Shown one piece after another: positions 16,399 through 24,015 of a stretch of DNA of 64,000 nucleotides. The stretch is from NCBI GenBank assembly GCA_028287235.1, contig JAQBQB010000025.1, positions 62,001 to 126,000 of the forward strand, given 5' to 3'. The notes under the pieces were generated by a model. That model was not told where the DNA came from. It did no database searches and was given only the letters and a program-made list of their open reading frames with translations. The first letter of the stretch is position 1; each line of letters starts with the position of its first letter. The stretch comes from Gemmatimonadota bacterium (GTDB lineage: Bacteria > Gemmatimonadota > Gemmatimonadetes > Gemmatimonadales > Gemmatimonadaceae). A program made the position numbers and the translations under genes.

Positions 16399-17640
16399 AT
16401 GGCAAACAAGAAAGAAGGAAAGGCATCGGCCGCCGGCCCCAAGGCGGAACAGAAGCGCGCCGCCGAGGAGCGCGAGCGCGAGGGCGTCAAACACACCTCG
16501 CACGAGAAGAGCAAGTTTCTCCGCGGCGACCGCATCGATCCCAATCCGATCGACGGGTCGGAGTCCGTCGCCGATCTGATCGACAACGCCTTCCTCGCGT
16601 ACAACGCGGCGCGCCTGCGCGAAGCCTGTGGCCTCTTCACCAAGAAGATGCTCGAGCCCGACGTGACCGTCGGTATGACGCTCACGGGCGCACTGACGCC
16701 CGCGGGACTCGGCATGGCCGCGCTCATTCCGCTCATCGAGAGCGGCTTCGTGGACTGGATCATCTCCACGGGCGCGAATCTCTATCACGACACGCACTTC
16801 GGCCTCGGTCTCGCGATGCATCGCGGAAACCCGCAGGAGTCCGACGTCGTGCTGCGCCAAGAGGGCGTCGTTCGCATCTACGACATCTTCTTCGACTACG
16901 ACGTTCTGCTCTCGACCGACGCGTTCTTCCGGAAGGTCATCCAGGGAGCGGAATTCCAGCGCCCGATGTCGAGCGCCGAGTTCCATCATTTGTGCGGCAA
17001 GTACGTGCGCGAGCGCGAGCGGGCGCTGGGACTCGGACAGAAGTCGCTGCTGTCGGCCGCGTATCAGGCGGGCGTTCCCATCTACACGTCGTCGCCCGGC
17101 GATTCGTCGATCGGCATGAACGTCGCGGCGCTCGCGCTCGAGGGGAACAAGTGCACGATCGATCCGAACATGGATGTGAACGAAACGGCGTCGATCGTGC
17201 TCACCGCCAAGCGCGGCGGCGGCAAGTCCGGCGTATTGATTCTCGGCGGCGGCAGCCCGAAGAACTTCATGCTTCAGACGGAACCGCAGATCCAGGAAGT
17301 GCTCGGTATCGACGAGAAGGGGCACGACTACTTCCTGCAGATCACCGATGCGCGTCCGGACACCGGCGGTCTCTCCGGCGCTACACCTGCCGAAGCCGTG
17401 AGTTGGGGCAAGATCGATCCCGACCGTTTGCCCGATGCCGTCGTGTGCTATCTCGACTCCACCGTGGCACTGCCGCTGCTCACGTCGTACGCGCATGCGC
17501 GTCACGCACGGCGGCCGCTCAAGCGGTTGTACGACCGCCGCGATGAGATGATGAATCTCTTACGGAGCGAGTTCGAGAAGGCCGGCCACGAGCCGGTGGC
17601 GGCGGAGGATGCGGACTCGAAGCTGCCGATGCACCGTTAG
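16399..17640 (+). CDS. Deoxyhypusine synthase-like protein (possible homospermidine-forming enzyme)
   Basis: A 413-residue member of the deoxyhypusine synthase family. [41 protein letters not shown] and EAVSWGKI are all conserved NAD and spermidine-binding segments. K288 in GGGSPKNF aligns with the catalytic lysine of the human enzyme (GGGVVKHH). Bacteria lack eIF5A, so bacterial homologues are thought to move the aminobutyl group to putrescine (homospermidine) or to other acceptors. It has a basic, low-complexity N-terminus of about 45 residues. Its stop overlaps that of the convergent MBL gene. Confidence 0.9.
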
Positions 17641-18545: not shown

Positions 18546-19022
18546 ATGCTCGAAGAACTGAAAAAGAAACTCGCGCGTGAGGCGGAAGCCCTGCAGTTCG
18601 AGCTCAACGTCACCTTGCCGAGCGAGATCCGGAAGGCGGTTGAGCACGGCGACCTCCGTGAGAACAGCGAGTACAAGGCCGCGCTCGAGCGGCAGCGGTT
18701 CGTCCAGGCCCGCCTCGGTCAGCTGCACGAACGGTTGAGCAAGATCGCGTCGATCGACCCGGCGCAGATTCCCACCGATCGCGTCGGTCTCGGTTCGCGC
18801 GTCGTCGTTCAGGATGAGAAGAGCAAGGTCAAAGAGACCTACTCGATGGTGTTCGGCGACGGGCTCGAGCTGGAAGAAGGGCATGTCACGATGGCGTCGC
18901 CGATCGGACGCGCGCTGCTCGGCAAGGCGTTAGGCGAGATCGCGTTTCTCAGGCTTCCGGCCGGGATGCGTCAGTTGAAAGTCGTGGAGCTCCAGACCGT
19001 CCACGACTTGGGCGACGCATAA
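18546..19022 (+). CDS. GreA/GreB-family transcription elongation factor
   Basis: A 158-residue protein of normal GreA length when started at ATG 18546. The N-terminal coiled coil carries the acidic tip HGDLRENSEYKAA, which enters the RNA polymerase channel and stimulates cleavage of backtracked RNA. The C-terminal FKBP-like domain reads VGLGSRVVVQDE and SPIGRALLGKALGE. An in-frame extension to 18435 would add 37 unconserved residues that look like promoter DNA, so it was rejected. Confidence 0.9.
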   Translation: MLEELKKKLAREAEALQFELNVTLPSEIRKAVEHGDLRENSEYKAALERQRFVQARLGQLHERLSKIASIDPAQIPTDRVGLGSRVVVQDEKSKVKETYSMVFGDGLELEEGHVTMASPIGRALLGKALGEIAFLRLPAGMRQLKVVELQTVHDLGDA

Positions 19023-19025
19023 GAC

Positions 19026-20660
19026 TCAGCTCGCGACAGCCACCAGTGTGTGCGGCACCGGATGGCGATGGATGATCGTCGTCCGCATCACGCGCTCGAA
19101 GCGCGCGAAGAGCTCGGGATCGAACAGCTTGCCGCTGTCGGCCGCCATCATGGTCAGCGCCTGCTCGCGGGTAAAAGCCGGGCGGTAGGGACGGTCGGTG
19201 GTCAACGCATCGAACACGTCGGCGACGCAGACGATGCGCGCGCTGAGCTCGATGTTCTCGCCGGCGAGCTTGTCGGGATAACCGCGGCCGTCCCAGCGCT
19301 CGTGGTGCCCGCGAACCATCGGCAGAATGTCCCATGGGAAGTCGATGTCGCGCAGCAGGTCGCTGCCGGCCGGCGCATGGCGCTCCATGACCTCGCGCTC
19401 CTCGTCGGTGAAGCGGCCCGGTTTGTTCAGGATCTCCGGCGGCACCACGATCTTGCCGACGTCGTGCAGCAGCGCGCCGATGCGGAACCAGAACATCGTG
19501 ATCTCGTCGTAGCCCACGTCACGCGCCAGGGCGCAGGCGTAGTCGGCGACCCGCTCGCAGTGGCCGTGCGTATAAGCGTCGCTCGACTCGATCGTCTGCG
19601 CCCAGTTGGTCACGACGTCGTAGAACTTTCGTTCGAGGCGGCCGATGCGACGCTCGAGGTCGGCCACGTTGTGCTGCGCGCGGAGCTTGCCGAACAACCG
19701 ATGTGACAGCGACAGCGCCTGGAGCATCTCGCGGTTCTTGCCCATGCGCTCGTAGAGCTCGGCCTGTTCGCGCGCCGTTTCGGCGGCGAGGAGCGAGTCC
19801 TCACGGTTGGTCGCAATCTCGAACGCGAGGGCGAGATGGCGTTCGGAGTCGTCGTACGCGCCGCGTAGCCGCGCAATGACCCCGAGGTGCCGGTATGTCT
19901 CGCTCAGCGAGCGTTGATCTCCCGCCTCGATCGCATCGGCGAGCACGGTGTGGCAGAGCTGGGCGGCGCGATCGATGTCTCCCCGGGCGAGCCAGAGCGC
20001 CGTCGAGTTGATCAGCGCCAGCAATCGGTGGGTGACGTCGCCGCATGCGTCGCAATGCGTGACCGCCTCGTCGTACGCCGCTTGCGCCTCGTCGAGGCGG
20101 TCGAGCTGCGTGTACACGAGGCCCATGTTGTTGAGCACCGGGCCGAGGTATTCTCGGTGTCCCGCTGCGCGCCACGTTGCCAGGCAGGCACCGAAGTGAT
20201 CGAGCGCCGCGCCAAGATTTCCGCGCATGCTCGCGATGATTCCAAGGTTCTGGGAGATGATCGCCTGCAGGCGTTCGTCGCGAGCCGTCGTCGCATGCCC
20301 GAGGGCGGTCGCGTAAAGAAGGTCGGCATCGTCGAGGTTGCCGCGGAGTAATTGCGTGCCGGCCATCCAGTTCCATGCGTGCGCGACACCGTCGAAGTCG
20401 TCGAGCGCTTCGGCAATCCCGAGCGCCGCGGCAAAGCAGTCGAACGCCGTTTCGAACTGACCTTCGTCGACATAAGTCCCGGCAATGCGACGAATGATCG
20501 CCGACGCTGTGACGCCCTCGCCCTCCCGTAACAAATACAACGCCGTTTCGTACCGCTGCCGCGCGACCGCACGCGCTCCCGACCGCTCCGAGCGCTGCGC
20601 CTCATCGAGCAGCCCAGCGATCATCGGACGCAACACAGATGGTTCGAACGGCGGAGTCAT
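19026..20660 (-). CDS. TPR-HD-GYP protein, probable cyclic-di-GMP phosphodiesterase
   Basis: A 544-residue cytoplasmic protein. Residues 1-335 are TPR-like helical repeats ([37 protein letters not shown]) and residues about 340-530 are an HD-GYP domain. HDVGK near residue 399 and [11 protein letters not shown] near residue 450 are both intact, so hydrolysis of cyclic-di-GMP is likely. It is the last gene of a four-gene minus-strand operon and overlaps the sigma-54 activator by ATGA. Its TPR part is visibly homologous to the separate TPR protein two genes upstream, suggesting duplication followed by fusion to HD-GYP. It has no receiver or PAS domain, so input probably comes through protein contacts. 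Confidence 0.93.
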
Positions 20661-21715
20661 CGCGCCGAACCCGCGTCAGCGCACGCGCGCGTCGCCATCT
20701 TCTTCGCCAACGTGGGCCTGGAAATGCCGAGCAATCGTGCCGCGGCTGCCTGATTTCCGCCGGTGATCTTCAACGTCAACGCCACGGCTTCGCGCTCGAC
20801 GTCCTCGAGCAACTTTCCGTTGCGCGGGATTCGAATGTCGCCGATGCTGTCGTCCGGCTCCACGACACGAGTCGTTCGGCGCTGGATCAACAGATGCTCC
20901 GCACGAACCATCACGGAGTCGGCGCTCAGGATGGCGGCCCGCTCCACCACGTTCTTCAGCTCGCGCACGTTTCCGGGCCAGCGGTGGACCAACAAGGCGG
21001 CCACGGCGTCGTCGGAAAAGCGTTTCGCCGGCTGATAGTCGCGCGTCTCCTCGTCGAGAAAATGCCGCGCGATCTGCTCGACGTCCTCTAAGCGGTCGCG
21101 GAGCGGCGGAAGTGTGATCGAGAAAACATTCAGGCGATAGTACAGATCCTCGCGGAACTCACCGGTTCCAACGACCTGCTCCAGCAATGGGCTGGCGGCG
21201 GCGATGATGCGACACTCGATTGGAAACTCGTTCAGCCCTCCAAGCCGGCGAACCCGCCGCGATTCCAGCGCGCGGAGCAGCTTGGGTTGCAGTTGTCGGG
21301 GGAGGTGATGGACCTCGTCGAGGAAGAGCGTTCCGAAGGCCGCGAGCTCGAGCAGGCCCTGCTTGCGCGCCTGTGCCCCGGTGAACGCGCCGCGTTCGTG
21401 GCCGAACAACTCGGACTCGAGCAGGTTCTCGGGGATCGCCGCGCAGTTGATGGCGACGAACGGTTCGTTCGCGCTCGCTCCGGCGTAGTGAATACCGCGG
21501 GCGAACAGCTCTTTGCCGGTACCGGTTTCACCGATGAGCAGCACCGTCGTCCGACGAGTCGCCGCTACTCGCTCGGCCATCTTGATGGCATCGCGAAGAA
21601 TGGCGCTATCGCCAACGACATTTTGAAAGCCGAAATCCGGCTCGACTGCGACGGCTCCGGAAACGCCGACTTCGGCGGTATCCAAACGGACCTCGTGAGC
21701 GGTGTGAACGACCAT
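20657..21715 (-). CDS. Sigma-54-dependent transcriptional activator without N-terminal sensor domain
   Basis: A 352-residue AAA+ enhancer-binding protein. Walker A GETGTGKE lies at 62-69, the sigma-54 contact loop GAFTGA at 109-114, Walker [11 protein letters not shown] at about 128-136, and a Fis-type helix-turn-helix at about 310-340 ([20 protein letters not shown]). The usual receiver, PAS or GAF domain is missing; only about 30 residues precede the AAA+ domain, as in PspF. Control must therefore come from another protein, and the co-encoded TPR proteins are the obvious candidates. It sits 27 bases after the TPR gene and overlaps the HD-GYP gene. A -24/-12 promoter precedes the whole operon. 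Confidence 0.95.
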
Positions 21716-21742
21716 AGCCGGCGTCGGGAGACGCCCTCTGCG

Positions 21743-22801
21743 CTACAAGTATCGGCCGGAGTCTCCGCCGCTCAACTGTTTTCGAATTCGATCAGCCCAT
21801 TTTGGCATTCCGATCCGTTGAAAGGCGTCTAGCGCGGCCTCCCAGACCTCGCGCGCGTTGGCGACTTCGCCGGACGCATGGAGCGCCATGCCGAACTGAT
21901 AGAGGATCTCGGCGCCCAGCAACGCATCTTCGACGATCGCGCAGAGTGTGAGCGCGTATCGAAGGGTGTCAGCCGCGTCGGCGTGGTTCCCCGACAGACG
22001 TTCGTGGGCCCCACGCAACTTGAGCGCGGCGGCGAGGCGCACATCATCGCCGCGCACCTCGGCGATTTCCAGCGCGCGGCTCAACGATACGTTCGACTCG
22101 TCCAACCGGCCCATCGTGAGTTTGAGCTCGGCGCGATTCTCCTCGAGAATTCCCTCGGACATGAGGTCGCCGCGCGCGCGGGCGATGCCGAGCGCGCGAT
22201 CGTACATGGACTGCGCGTCGTCGAACCGCTCTTCCCGCACATACATGAAACCGAGGTTGTTCAAGACCGCGCACAACGGCTGCAGATCGTTCGTGGCCTC
22301 GAACATCGTGATACACCTCCGCCAGTGCGCGGTGGCGGCGGCAAGATCTCCCTCGATGTCGGCGACGATGCCCAGGTTCTGCGCGACCAATCCCTCCAGC
22401 CGCGTCTCGCCACAGCTATCCGCGAGCGAGAGCGCCTCCGTCATGAGGCGCGTCGCCCGATGCAGATCGCCGCGGCGAAGCGCCAGCGTTCCCAGATGGT
22501 TGAGCGCGTGAGCGCGTCCCGCGTCGTACCCGAGTTCGGACGAGATCGCGAGGCTGCGGAGATACAGCGGCTCGGCTTCTGCTGTGCGTCCACGATCGCA
22601 CAGCACCGACGCCTGCCAGCGCAGGACGTCGGCGAGCAGCGAGCTTTTCTCGTCCGTTCCGAGCAGCGCCAATGCTTCGCCATTCAGCTGCACGGCGTCG
22701 TCCGGTGAATCGCCGAAACCCGCCGCGCGCGCCAGTTCGGCGAGGCGGCGGGCTTCGACTGTCCCGTTGAATCTCCTATCCTTCGGAGCTGCGTGTGCCA
22801 T
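21743..22801 (-). CDS. TPR repeat protein of the sigma-54/HD-GYP operon
   Basis: A 352-residue all-helical protein with six or more TPR-like repeats (LAQNLGIVADIEGDLAAA-type and VLNNLGFMYVREERFDDAQ-type units) and no catalytic or membrane segment. It shares repeat wording and order with the N-terminal half of the HD-GYP protein at 19026-20660, so the two are paralogous over about 300 residues. ATG 22801 lies 17 bases after the lipoprotein stop. A longer in-frame reading to 23446 is only a shadow of the lipoprotein gene. It is a likely scaffold or inhibitor acting on the neighbouring activator, by inference from context. Confidence 0.85.
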   Translation of the reverse strand: MAHAAPKDRRFNGTVEARRLAELARAAGFGDSPDDAVQLNGEALALLGTDEKSSLLADVLRWQASVLCDRGRTAEAEPLYLRSLAISSELGYDAGRAHALNHLGTLALRRGDLHRATRLMTEALSLADSCGETRLEGLVAQNLGIVADIEGDLAAATAHWRRCITMFEATNDLQPLCAVLNNLGFMYVREERFDDAQSMYDRALGIARARGDLMSEGILEENRAELKLTMGRLDESNVSLSRALEIAEVRGDDVRLAAALKLRGAHERLSGNHADAADTLRYALTLCAIVEDALLGAEILYQFGMALHASGEVANAREVWEAALDAFQRIGMPKWADRIRKQLSGGDSGRYL

Positions 22802-22818
22802 CCGACATGCGTCCGAGA

Positions 22819-23409
22819 CTACTGATCTTCGCCAACCGTGATGATGTAGCCCGAGAAATGCCAGATCGTGGTGATGGCGGTCTGGTTGAGCAGATTCACG
22901 TTGATGTTCAGCAGCTCGGTGATCGTCGTGATGTGCGTGCTGTCGGGGAAATAACCGACGCCGAGCGACAACGGACTCACCAACCCGCCGTTGCGCGCCT
23001 GCGTGTTCCGCAGATCCTGCGTCGCCACGAGCGGCAGATTGAAGCGCAGCCCGTGCGGCGCGAACTCGTACGCCACCTTCGACCCGGCGAGCGCCGTCAC
23101 GGTGATGCGCGTGCCCATGGGTGCGGCAAGCGGCGGAACGATGACCGAGAAGCCCGCGCCCGGGATGACGATCGCGGTGCCGAGCAGGCCCACGGTGCCC
23201 GACGCGGAGAGGTTCGCCGCGAGCGGCGTGTTCCGCAGCAGCGGCGTGATCGTTTTCGGCGCGCCCAGCAAGGTGCCGAGCAACGAGTGCGACGCCGCGG
23301 TCGGCGGAGCTACGGCCGTGGCGGGGGCAACGGGATTGGCCTGGTCGCACGCGGCGAACAGGGTGACGGCGAGCGTGATGGTTAACGTGCTTAGTATGCG
23401 TCGGCGCAT
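22819..23409 (-). CDS. Lipoprotein with C-terminal HFSGY motif, first gene of the sigma-54/HD-GYP operon
   Basis: A 196-residue protein with a lipobox LFAAC at residues about 17-21. It has a beta-rich middle with a ZU5-like look (GFSVIVPPLAAPMGTRITVTAL, then YEFAPHGLRF) and the C-terminal HFSGYIITVG. A second protein of the same build lies at 56713-57414. ATG 23409 was chosen because residues before it do not form part of the signal peptide. Being surface- or periplasm-anchored at the head of a regulatory operon, it may be the sensed or produced envelope component. Its function is unknown. Confidence 0.8.
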   Translation of the reverse strand: MRRRILSTLTITLAVTLFAACDQANPVAPATAVAPPTAASHSLLGTLLGAPKTITPLLRNTPLAANLSASGTVGLLGTAIVIPGAGFSVIVPPLAAPMGTRITVTALAGSKVAYEFAPHGLRFNLPLVATQDLRNTQARNGGLVSPLSLGVGYFPDSTHITTITELLNINVNLLNQTAITTIWHFSGYIITVGEDQ

Positions 23410-23464
23410 AGCACTGCTCCTCAGGGAAAATAAGAAAACACAACATCCAGCCGAGCCCGTCCTA

Positions 23465-23480
23465 AGCACCGCTCGTGCCA
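23465..23480 (-). promoter_or_regulatory. Probable sigma-54 (-24/-12) promoter of the lipoprotein/TPR/activator/HD-GYP operon
   Basis: Read on the minus strand the sequence is TGGCACGAGCGGTGCT. The -24 block TGGCACG is perfect, and the GG and GC pairs are separated by exactly 10 bases. The -12 block is GTGCT rather than TTGCT, one mismatch. It ends about 56 bases before the ATG at 23409, giving a leader of roughly 45 bases. The operon it would drive encodes a GAFTGA-containing activator, so autoregulation is likely. Confidence 0.65.
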
Positions 23481-23507
23481 GTGGCGTAAGACATTGCACG
23501 ATAGGAG

Positions 23508-23582
23508 TTTACACAATTTCCGCCTCGCGGATCGCCCCCGATGTGCAAAGTATTTTTGCACCGAATTTTTCGCTTGTGTAAA
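23508..23582. promoter_or_regulatory. Candidate upstream activator sites (palindromes) for the sigma-54 promoter
   Basis: Two inverted repeats lie just upstream of the -24 box. TTTACACAA (23508-23516) pairs with TTGTGTAAA (23574-23582), and inside them GTGCAAA (23543-23549) pairs with TTTGCAC (23555-23561) around a five-base centre. Enhancer-binding proteins bind palindromes at such distances (about 30-100 bases) upstream of -24. They could equally serve the divergent padR gene at 23683. Confidence 0.4.
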
Positions 23583-23654
23583 GATTCTTCGCCGTCCGTC
23601 GAATCGGCCGTGTCGTCCACCAGCGCTTGACGCCCGCCGCTCGCGATCCAATCT

Positions 23655-23675
23655 TCCCCGTACCTGGTACGGGGA
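23655..23675. promoter_or_regulatory. Perfect palindrome overlapping the padR ribosome binding site
   Basis: TCCCCGTACC, one T, then GGTACGGGGA: 10-bp arms with a single central base. The right arm contains the GGGGA that serves as ribosome binding site for the ATG at 23683. It is well placed as a PadR operator for autorepression, and as RNA could hide the ribosome binding site. Confidence 0.55.
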
Positions 23676-23682
23676 GAGACCG

Positions 23683-24015
23683 ATGGCCGCGAAACCGATG
23701 GACCTCCTGCAAGGCACCCTCGACGTGCTCGTCCTTCGCACGCTCGCCTGGGGCTCCATGCACGGCTACGCCGTGTCGCGCTCCATCCACCAGCGCACCG
23801 ACGGCGTGCTCGAGATCGAGGACGCGCCGCTCTACAAAGCGCTGCACCGCCTCGAGCAGGCCGGATTCGTCTCCGCCGAATGGGGACTCTCCGAGAACAA
23901 CCGGCGGGCGCGCTATTACGCACTCACCCCTGCCGGACGCCGGCAGCTCCGCACCGAGGAGAGCGCGTGGCGCCGCTACGCCGAGGCCGTGTTCAAGGTG
24001 CTGGAGCCCACGTGA
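23683..24015 (+). CDS. PadR family transcriptional regulator
   Basis: A 110-residue winged-helix repressor: MDLLQGTLDVLVLRTLAWGSMHGYAVSRSI, the recognition region APLYKALHRLEQAGFVSAEW, the wing NNRRARYYALTPAGRRQL, and a short C-terminal dimerisation helix. ATG 23683 has GGGGAG 7 bases upstream, lying within a palindrome that is its likely operator. It overlaps the permease gene by GTGA. PadR-ADOP pairs are frequent in Acidobacteria and Gemmatimonadota. The inducer is unknown. Confidence 0.93.
   Translation: MAAKPMDLLQGTLDVLVLRTLAWGSMHGYAVSRSIHQRTDGVLEIEDAPLYKALHRLEQAGFVSAEWGLSENNRRARYYALTPAGRRQLRTEESAWRRYAEAVFKVLEPT

Follow-up and report, generated by a model that had tools for sequence, protein, structure and literature searches.

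The window analysed here is a 64 kb stretch (66% GC) of the 5.73 Mb genome of a soil bacterium of the Gemmatimonadota, and it carries on its minus strand a predicted operon of four genes. The first of these (22819..23409) encodes a lipoprotein with a ZU5 fold, a lipobox cysteine (Cys21) and a good ribosome-binding site (CCTGAGGAGCAGTGCT-ATG), and it is followed by the genes for a TPR-repeat protein (21743..22801), a sigma-54 enhancer-binding protein (20657..21715) and a protein that combines TPR repeats with an HD-GYP domain and is probably a c-di-GMP phosphodiesterase (19026..20660). The assignment to one transcription unit is based on the short distances between the genes, namely gaps of 17 bp and 27 bp and then a 4 bp overlap (ATGA) between the activator gene and the last gene, and on the conserved gene order. 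This order is kept in most members of the genus and also in G034, G009 and L107, the exception being G001, where the first TPR gene is missing. The named relatives returned by a search with the lipoprotein were Gemmatimonadaceae and Gemmatimonadetes metagenome genomes. On the other side of the intergenic region a divergent PadR-like gene starts at about 23684 on the plus strand; just upstream of it lies a palindrome, TCCCCGTACCAGGTACGGGGA (23655-23675), which is probably the operator of the PadR-like gene and has a similar counterpart in G003.

A preliminary description of this DNA had placed a near-consensus sigma-54 promoter in front of the operon. The element, TGGCACGAGCGGTGCT, is indeed found with exactly the sequence and coordinates given there, at 23465-23480 on the minus strand, and with the 10-base spacing between its GG and GC that had been reported. 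The GG would occupy positions -25/-24 and the GC positions -13/-12 of a transcript with a predicted start near 23454, and 55 bp separate the element from the ATG of the lipoprotein gene. Its sole deviation from TGGCAC-N5-TTGCW is a G that replaces the first T of TTGC. Since the orthologues within the genus carry C or A at this position and never T, this apparent mismatch is not meaningful, and relative to the consensus of the orthologous group itself, TGGCAC-N6-TGC(T/C), TGGCACGAGCGGTGCT shows no departure at all. A scan of positions 18800-23800 found no sigma-70-like promoter. Just upstream of the -24 element, at about 23481-23500, there is also a CAATGACTTG-like box that resembles an IHF-type site, and boxes of this kind occur at the same position in G034, L107, G009b and G025.

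Taken alone, the motif is weak evidence, because in a GC-rich window of 64 kb a site that differs from the general sigma-54 consensus at one position is no rarity: there are two such sites, the other being located at 17465 within a coding gene. What decides the matter is where the element stands and that it is conserved. When the 200 bp upstream region was subjected to 1000 dinucleotide shuffles, none reached the score of TGGCACGAGCGGTGCT. A matrix built from the sites of five other genomes of the genus, with the site of the window itself left out, gives TGGCACGAGCGGTGCT the highest score anywhere in the 64 kb, both strands included, by a small margin over the runner-up (12.83 vs 12.66). In genome-wide pattern searches, TGGCAC-N6-TGCW occurred 10 times in 5.73 Mb (L062-L071 in G000), which makes it about ten times rarer than the reversed pattern (109 occurrences); of the ten, several precede genes, including one for an Hsp20-like protein (L071) and one for another lipoprotein (L066).

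The alignment of the regions upstream of orthologous lipoprotein genes, which had been proposed as a check with non-conservation as the refuting outcome, came out in favour of the promoter: it revealed the -24/-12 element in all five other members of the genus that were examined, in the form of TGGCACGCGGCCTGCT (G005), TGGCACAGCCAATGCT (G003), CGGCACGAACGCTGCC (G004), AGGCACATTCGCTGCT (G001) and TGGCACATGGGATGCT (G002). At a mean column identity of 50%, the GGCAC and TGC blocks are invariant in this alignment while most of the flanking DNA has diverged. Outside the genus, corresponding elements are AGGCACGCCAGTTGCT (G007), TGGCCCGCCGGTTGCT (G034), TGGCCCGCCAGTTGCT (L107), AGGCACGCGCTATGCC (G009) and TGGCACGCGCATTGCC (G010), and a more weakly placed one is present in G021. 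In G018, which has the genes for the lipoprotein, the TPR protein and the activator, a recognisable promoter was not found directly upstream. We also considered that the divergent PadR-like gene might account for the conservation, and rejected this explanation, as the upstream neighbours apparently differ in G002, G004 and G005, where the promoter and the palindromes described below are kept. The frequency of one-mismatch matches and the narrow lead in the held-out ranking might be taken to mean that TGGCACGAGCGGTGCT is a coincidence and that the scan missed an ordinary promoter. We regard this as very improbable and reject it on the basis of the conservation and the held-out rank, given that about ten relatives keep the element in a comparable place despite their diverged flanks and that a phased pair of palindromes lies upstream of it.

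These palindromes had gone unnoticed in the preliminary description. Both are 17-mers of the type TGTAAAGAWTCTTTACA and resemble enhancers: the promoter-proximal one, TGCAAAAATACTTTGCA, lies at 23544..23560 with its centre at about -98 from the predicted start, and the promoter-distal one, GGCGAAGAATCTTTACA in the minus-strand reading, at 23577..23593 with its centre at about -131. Counted from the T of TGGCAC, their starts lie 80 and 113 bp further upstream, which sets them 33 bp apart, or about three helical turns. A terminator-like match at 23543-23561 proved to be the proximal palindrome itself. The same offsets of -80/-113 are found in G002 and, in a weaker form of the pair, in G001 and G005, and the degenerate sites of G004 are located at -81 and -114. 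In G003, the pair as a whole has moved by 11 bp, i.e., one helical turn, to -102/-69, and the 33 bp spacing is intact. The outgroups G034, L107 and G009 each have one related palindrome at -80 or -81. When a matrix derived from the other genomes only was applied to the window, the proximal site took rank 1 and the distal site rank 2 of 63,984 positions.

The question arises which protein binds these palindromes. The exact pattern TGYAAA-N5-TTTRCA has a single match in 5.7 Mb, which is the proximal palindrome, and a looser search of the genome returned few other places, none of those inspected being in a comparable promoter context. As further targets of the activator we considered C23:59030, C27:94923, C15:191222, C27:13333 and C30:148541, and discarded these candidate palindromes as none of the loci has a palindrome pair together with a correctly placed -24/-12 element. 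Across the relatives, upstream palindromes accompany 8 of 9 operons that contain the activator gene and 1 of 7 that do not (Fisher p 0.006), a comparison that is supportive only, as the species are related and the threshold was set after inspecting the data. From this co-occurrence and the near-uniqueness of the sites, the operon's own activator is most likely the protein that would bind them.

It could alternatively be imagined that the promoter is real and that a different enhancer-binding protein occupies the palindromes, the operon's activator acting elsewhere. The genome encodes a dozen activators of the same type, with 11 homologues elsewhere at E below 1e-60, and in G010 and G021 related lipoprotein and TPR/HD-GYP operons lack an activator gene and yet have the -24/-12 element (L087, L088). 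A -24/-12 element by itself therefore does not imply the operon's activator, and there may be a wider sigma-54 regulon of lipoprotein and HD-GYP genes in the family. Against a foreign binder stand the palindrome pair, which has hardly any counterpart in the genome and goes along with the operons containing the activator gene, and the conserved neighbourhood of the activator, which is this same operon, so that we consider such a binder unlikely.

The machinery for a sigma-54 circuit is encoded in the genome, which has one RpoN (PF04552, E 2e-63). The activator itself consists of an AAA+ sigma-54 domain (PF00158, E 3.3e-63), in which the alignment shows the Walker A sequence GETGTGKE and the GAFTGA loop, and of a C-terminal Fis-type helix-turn-helix (HTH_8; PF02954, E 1.6e-12), preceded by an N-terminus of about 33 residues without a sensor domain. 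The orthologues of G007, G025, G034 and G009 have GAFTDA instead of GAFTGA, which is a listed functional variant (PMC4641369). With 250 bits against the PspF equivalog TIGR02974 (NCBIfam), the protein stays below the cut-off of 443.55 and is not classed as PspF, although it may work in a PspF-like manner.

The claim that a sigma-54 promoter precedes the operon of its own activator is thus supported by the conservation of the element, the presence of rpoN, the GAFTGA motif of the activator and the conserved palindrome pair, which lies in the range, beyond about -70, where upstream activator sites are expected. From our point of view, the most plausible reading, to which we assign a probability of roughly 85%, is that the sigma-54 promoter drives all four genes and that the activator, dedicated to this operon, binds the palindromes and positively autoregulates it. 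Dimers of the activator would occupy the two phased sites, centred near -98 and -131, and assemble into a hexamer, which would loop to the RNA polymerase-sigma-54 complex at 23465-23480 and open it by ATP hydrolysis, thereby raising the transcription of its own operon. Because it has no sensor domain, the activator would need a partner that sets its activity, a role for which the neighbouring TPR protein is the strongest candidate. The same need for a control partner could, however, be met in a circuit of opposite sign, in which either the activator or the TPR protein, after being made, restrains expression, as in some NtrC systems; in Caulobacter, NtrC acts as a repressor of the operon that encodes it (PMC10274813). 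The paired sites at about -98/-131 from a -24/-12 promoter represent an activation arrangement and the GAFTGA motif is intact, and negative feedback hence appears improbable compared with positive autoregulation.

Paralogous copies of the module offer a natural experiment in which activator and promoter may have changed the sigma factor together. In the paralogous activators at G000:C12 (the same genome), G003:C44 and G005:C47, a short deletion has removed GAFTGA, and no good -24/-12 element was found upstream of the lipoprotein genes of these three clusters (L072, L085, L086). Instead, these genes share the upstream box CCGATAAT(T/C)CGA, which is similar in appearance to the -10 region of sigma-70 promoters. 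There is precedent for activators that lack GAFTGA and work at sigma-70 promoters (PMC10274813). The proposed mechanism agrees with this pattern, in which GAFTGA goes together with the -24/-12 element and the loss of one with the loss of the other.

With regard to the cargo of the operon, the predicted structure of the lipoprotein has a mean pLDDT of 85.5, and the first matches in a Foldseek search with this model were all ZU5 domains (ankyrin, UNC5b, ZO-1). In the structural comparison, the best match was the ZU5 domain of ankyrin-B, with a VIA Z of 11.5 over 121 residues, and GAIN domains and NLRP1 ranked lower. The Pfam model for ZU5 (PF00791) scores 20.1 bits, just below its cut-off of 21. 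Three residues, H184-F185-S186, are invariant in 32 relatives and lie between the last two strands of the model. In motif and position they match the HF/S self-cleavage site of PIDD and Nup98 (PMC3210808), and self-cleaving ZU5 domains have earlier been proposed for bacterial surface proteins (PMC3482391). Judging from the model, it is possible that HFS is a self-cleavage site in this lipoprotein as well, at which cleavage would release about 10 residues.

Autoregulated activator operons are already known, and it is hence the system that is new here and not the type of circuit. In the glnALG operon of enteric bacteria, a sigma-54 promoter (glnAp2) likewise precedes an operon encoding its own enhancer-binding protein, NtrC, and the activator sites, again a pair, lie roughly 90-140 bp ahead of the start (PMC7408454). 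NtrC, however, carries a receiver domain and works with a histidine kinase, whereas the present activator has no sensor domain and its partner is probably the TPR protein, and the cargo consists of a ZU5 lipoprotein and an HD-GYP protein and is not related to nitrogen metabolism. Similar in architecture are PspF and other single-component activators, which also combine AAA+ and Fis-type helix-turn-helix domains with almost nothing N-terminal and must be controlled by another protein; unlike in the case of PspF, there is no PspA-like partner in the operon described here, and the promoter heads the activator's own operon. Activators that target their own operon are further known from ZraSR and from Desulfovibrio operons such as DVU1418-1419 and DVU3382-3381 (PMC12316311, PMC4641369), but these are two-component systems, while kinase and receiver are both missing from the present operon. 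Lastly, the NtrC proteins of Rhodobacter capsulatus and Caulobacter as well as VspR, which lack GAFTGA and act on sigma-70 promoters, resemble the paralogous activators, whereas the activator of the window, with its GAFTGA retained, is of the conventional class.

In a search of the literature we found no sigma-54 regulon, enhancer sequence or activator-target pair described for Gemmatimonadota. One could speculate, and we put this forward as a tentative proposal that is rather less likely than the regulatory circuit itself, that the operon represents a previously undescribed signalling module of this phylum, in which a self-amplifying sigma-54 switch governs the joint production of a ZU5 (GAIN-like) lipoprotein capable of self-cleavage, a TPR partner, an activator without a sensor and an HD-GYP enzyme, and whose sister copy in the same genomes moved from sigma-54 to sigma-70-type control upon losing GAFTGA and the -24/-12 element of the lipoprotein promoter. 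The locus links sigma-54 to a lipoprotein cargo, which agrees with the view that this sigma factor governs the exterior of the cell (PMC3162934), and it provides for the Gemmatimonadota one complete set of promoter, phased enhancer pair, putative cognate activator and cargo.
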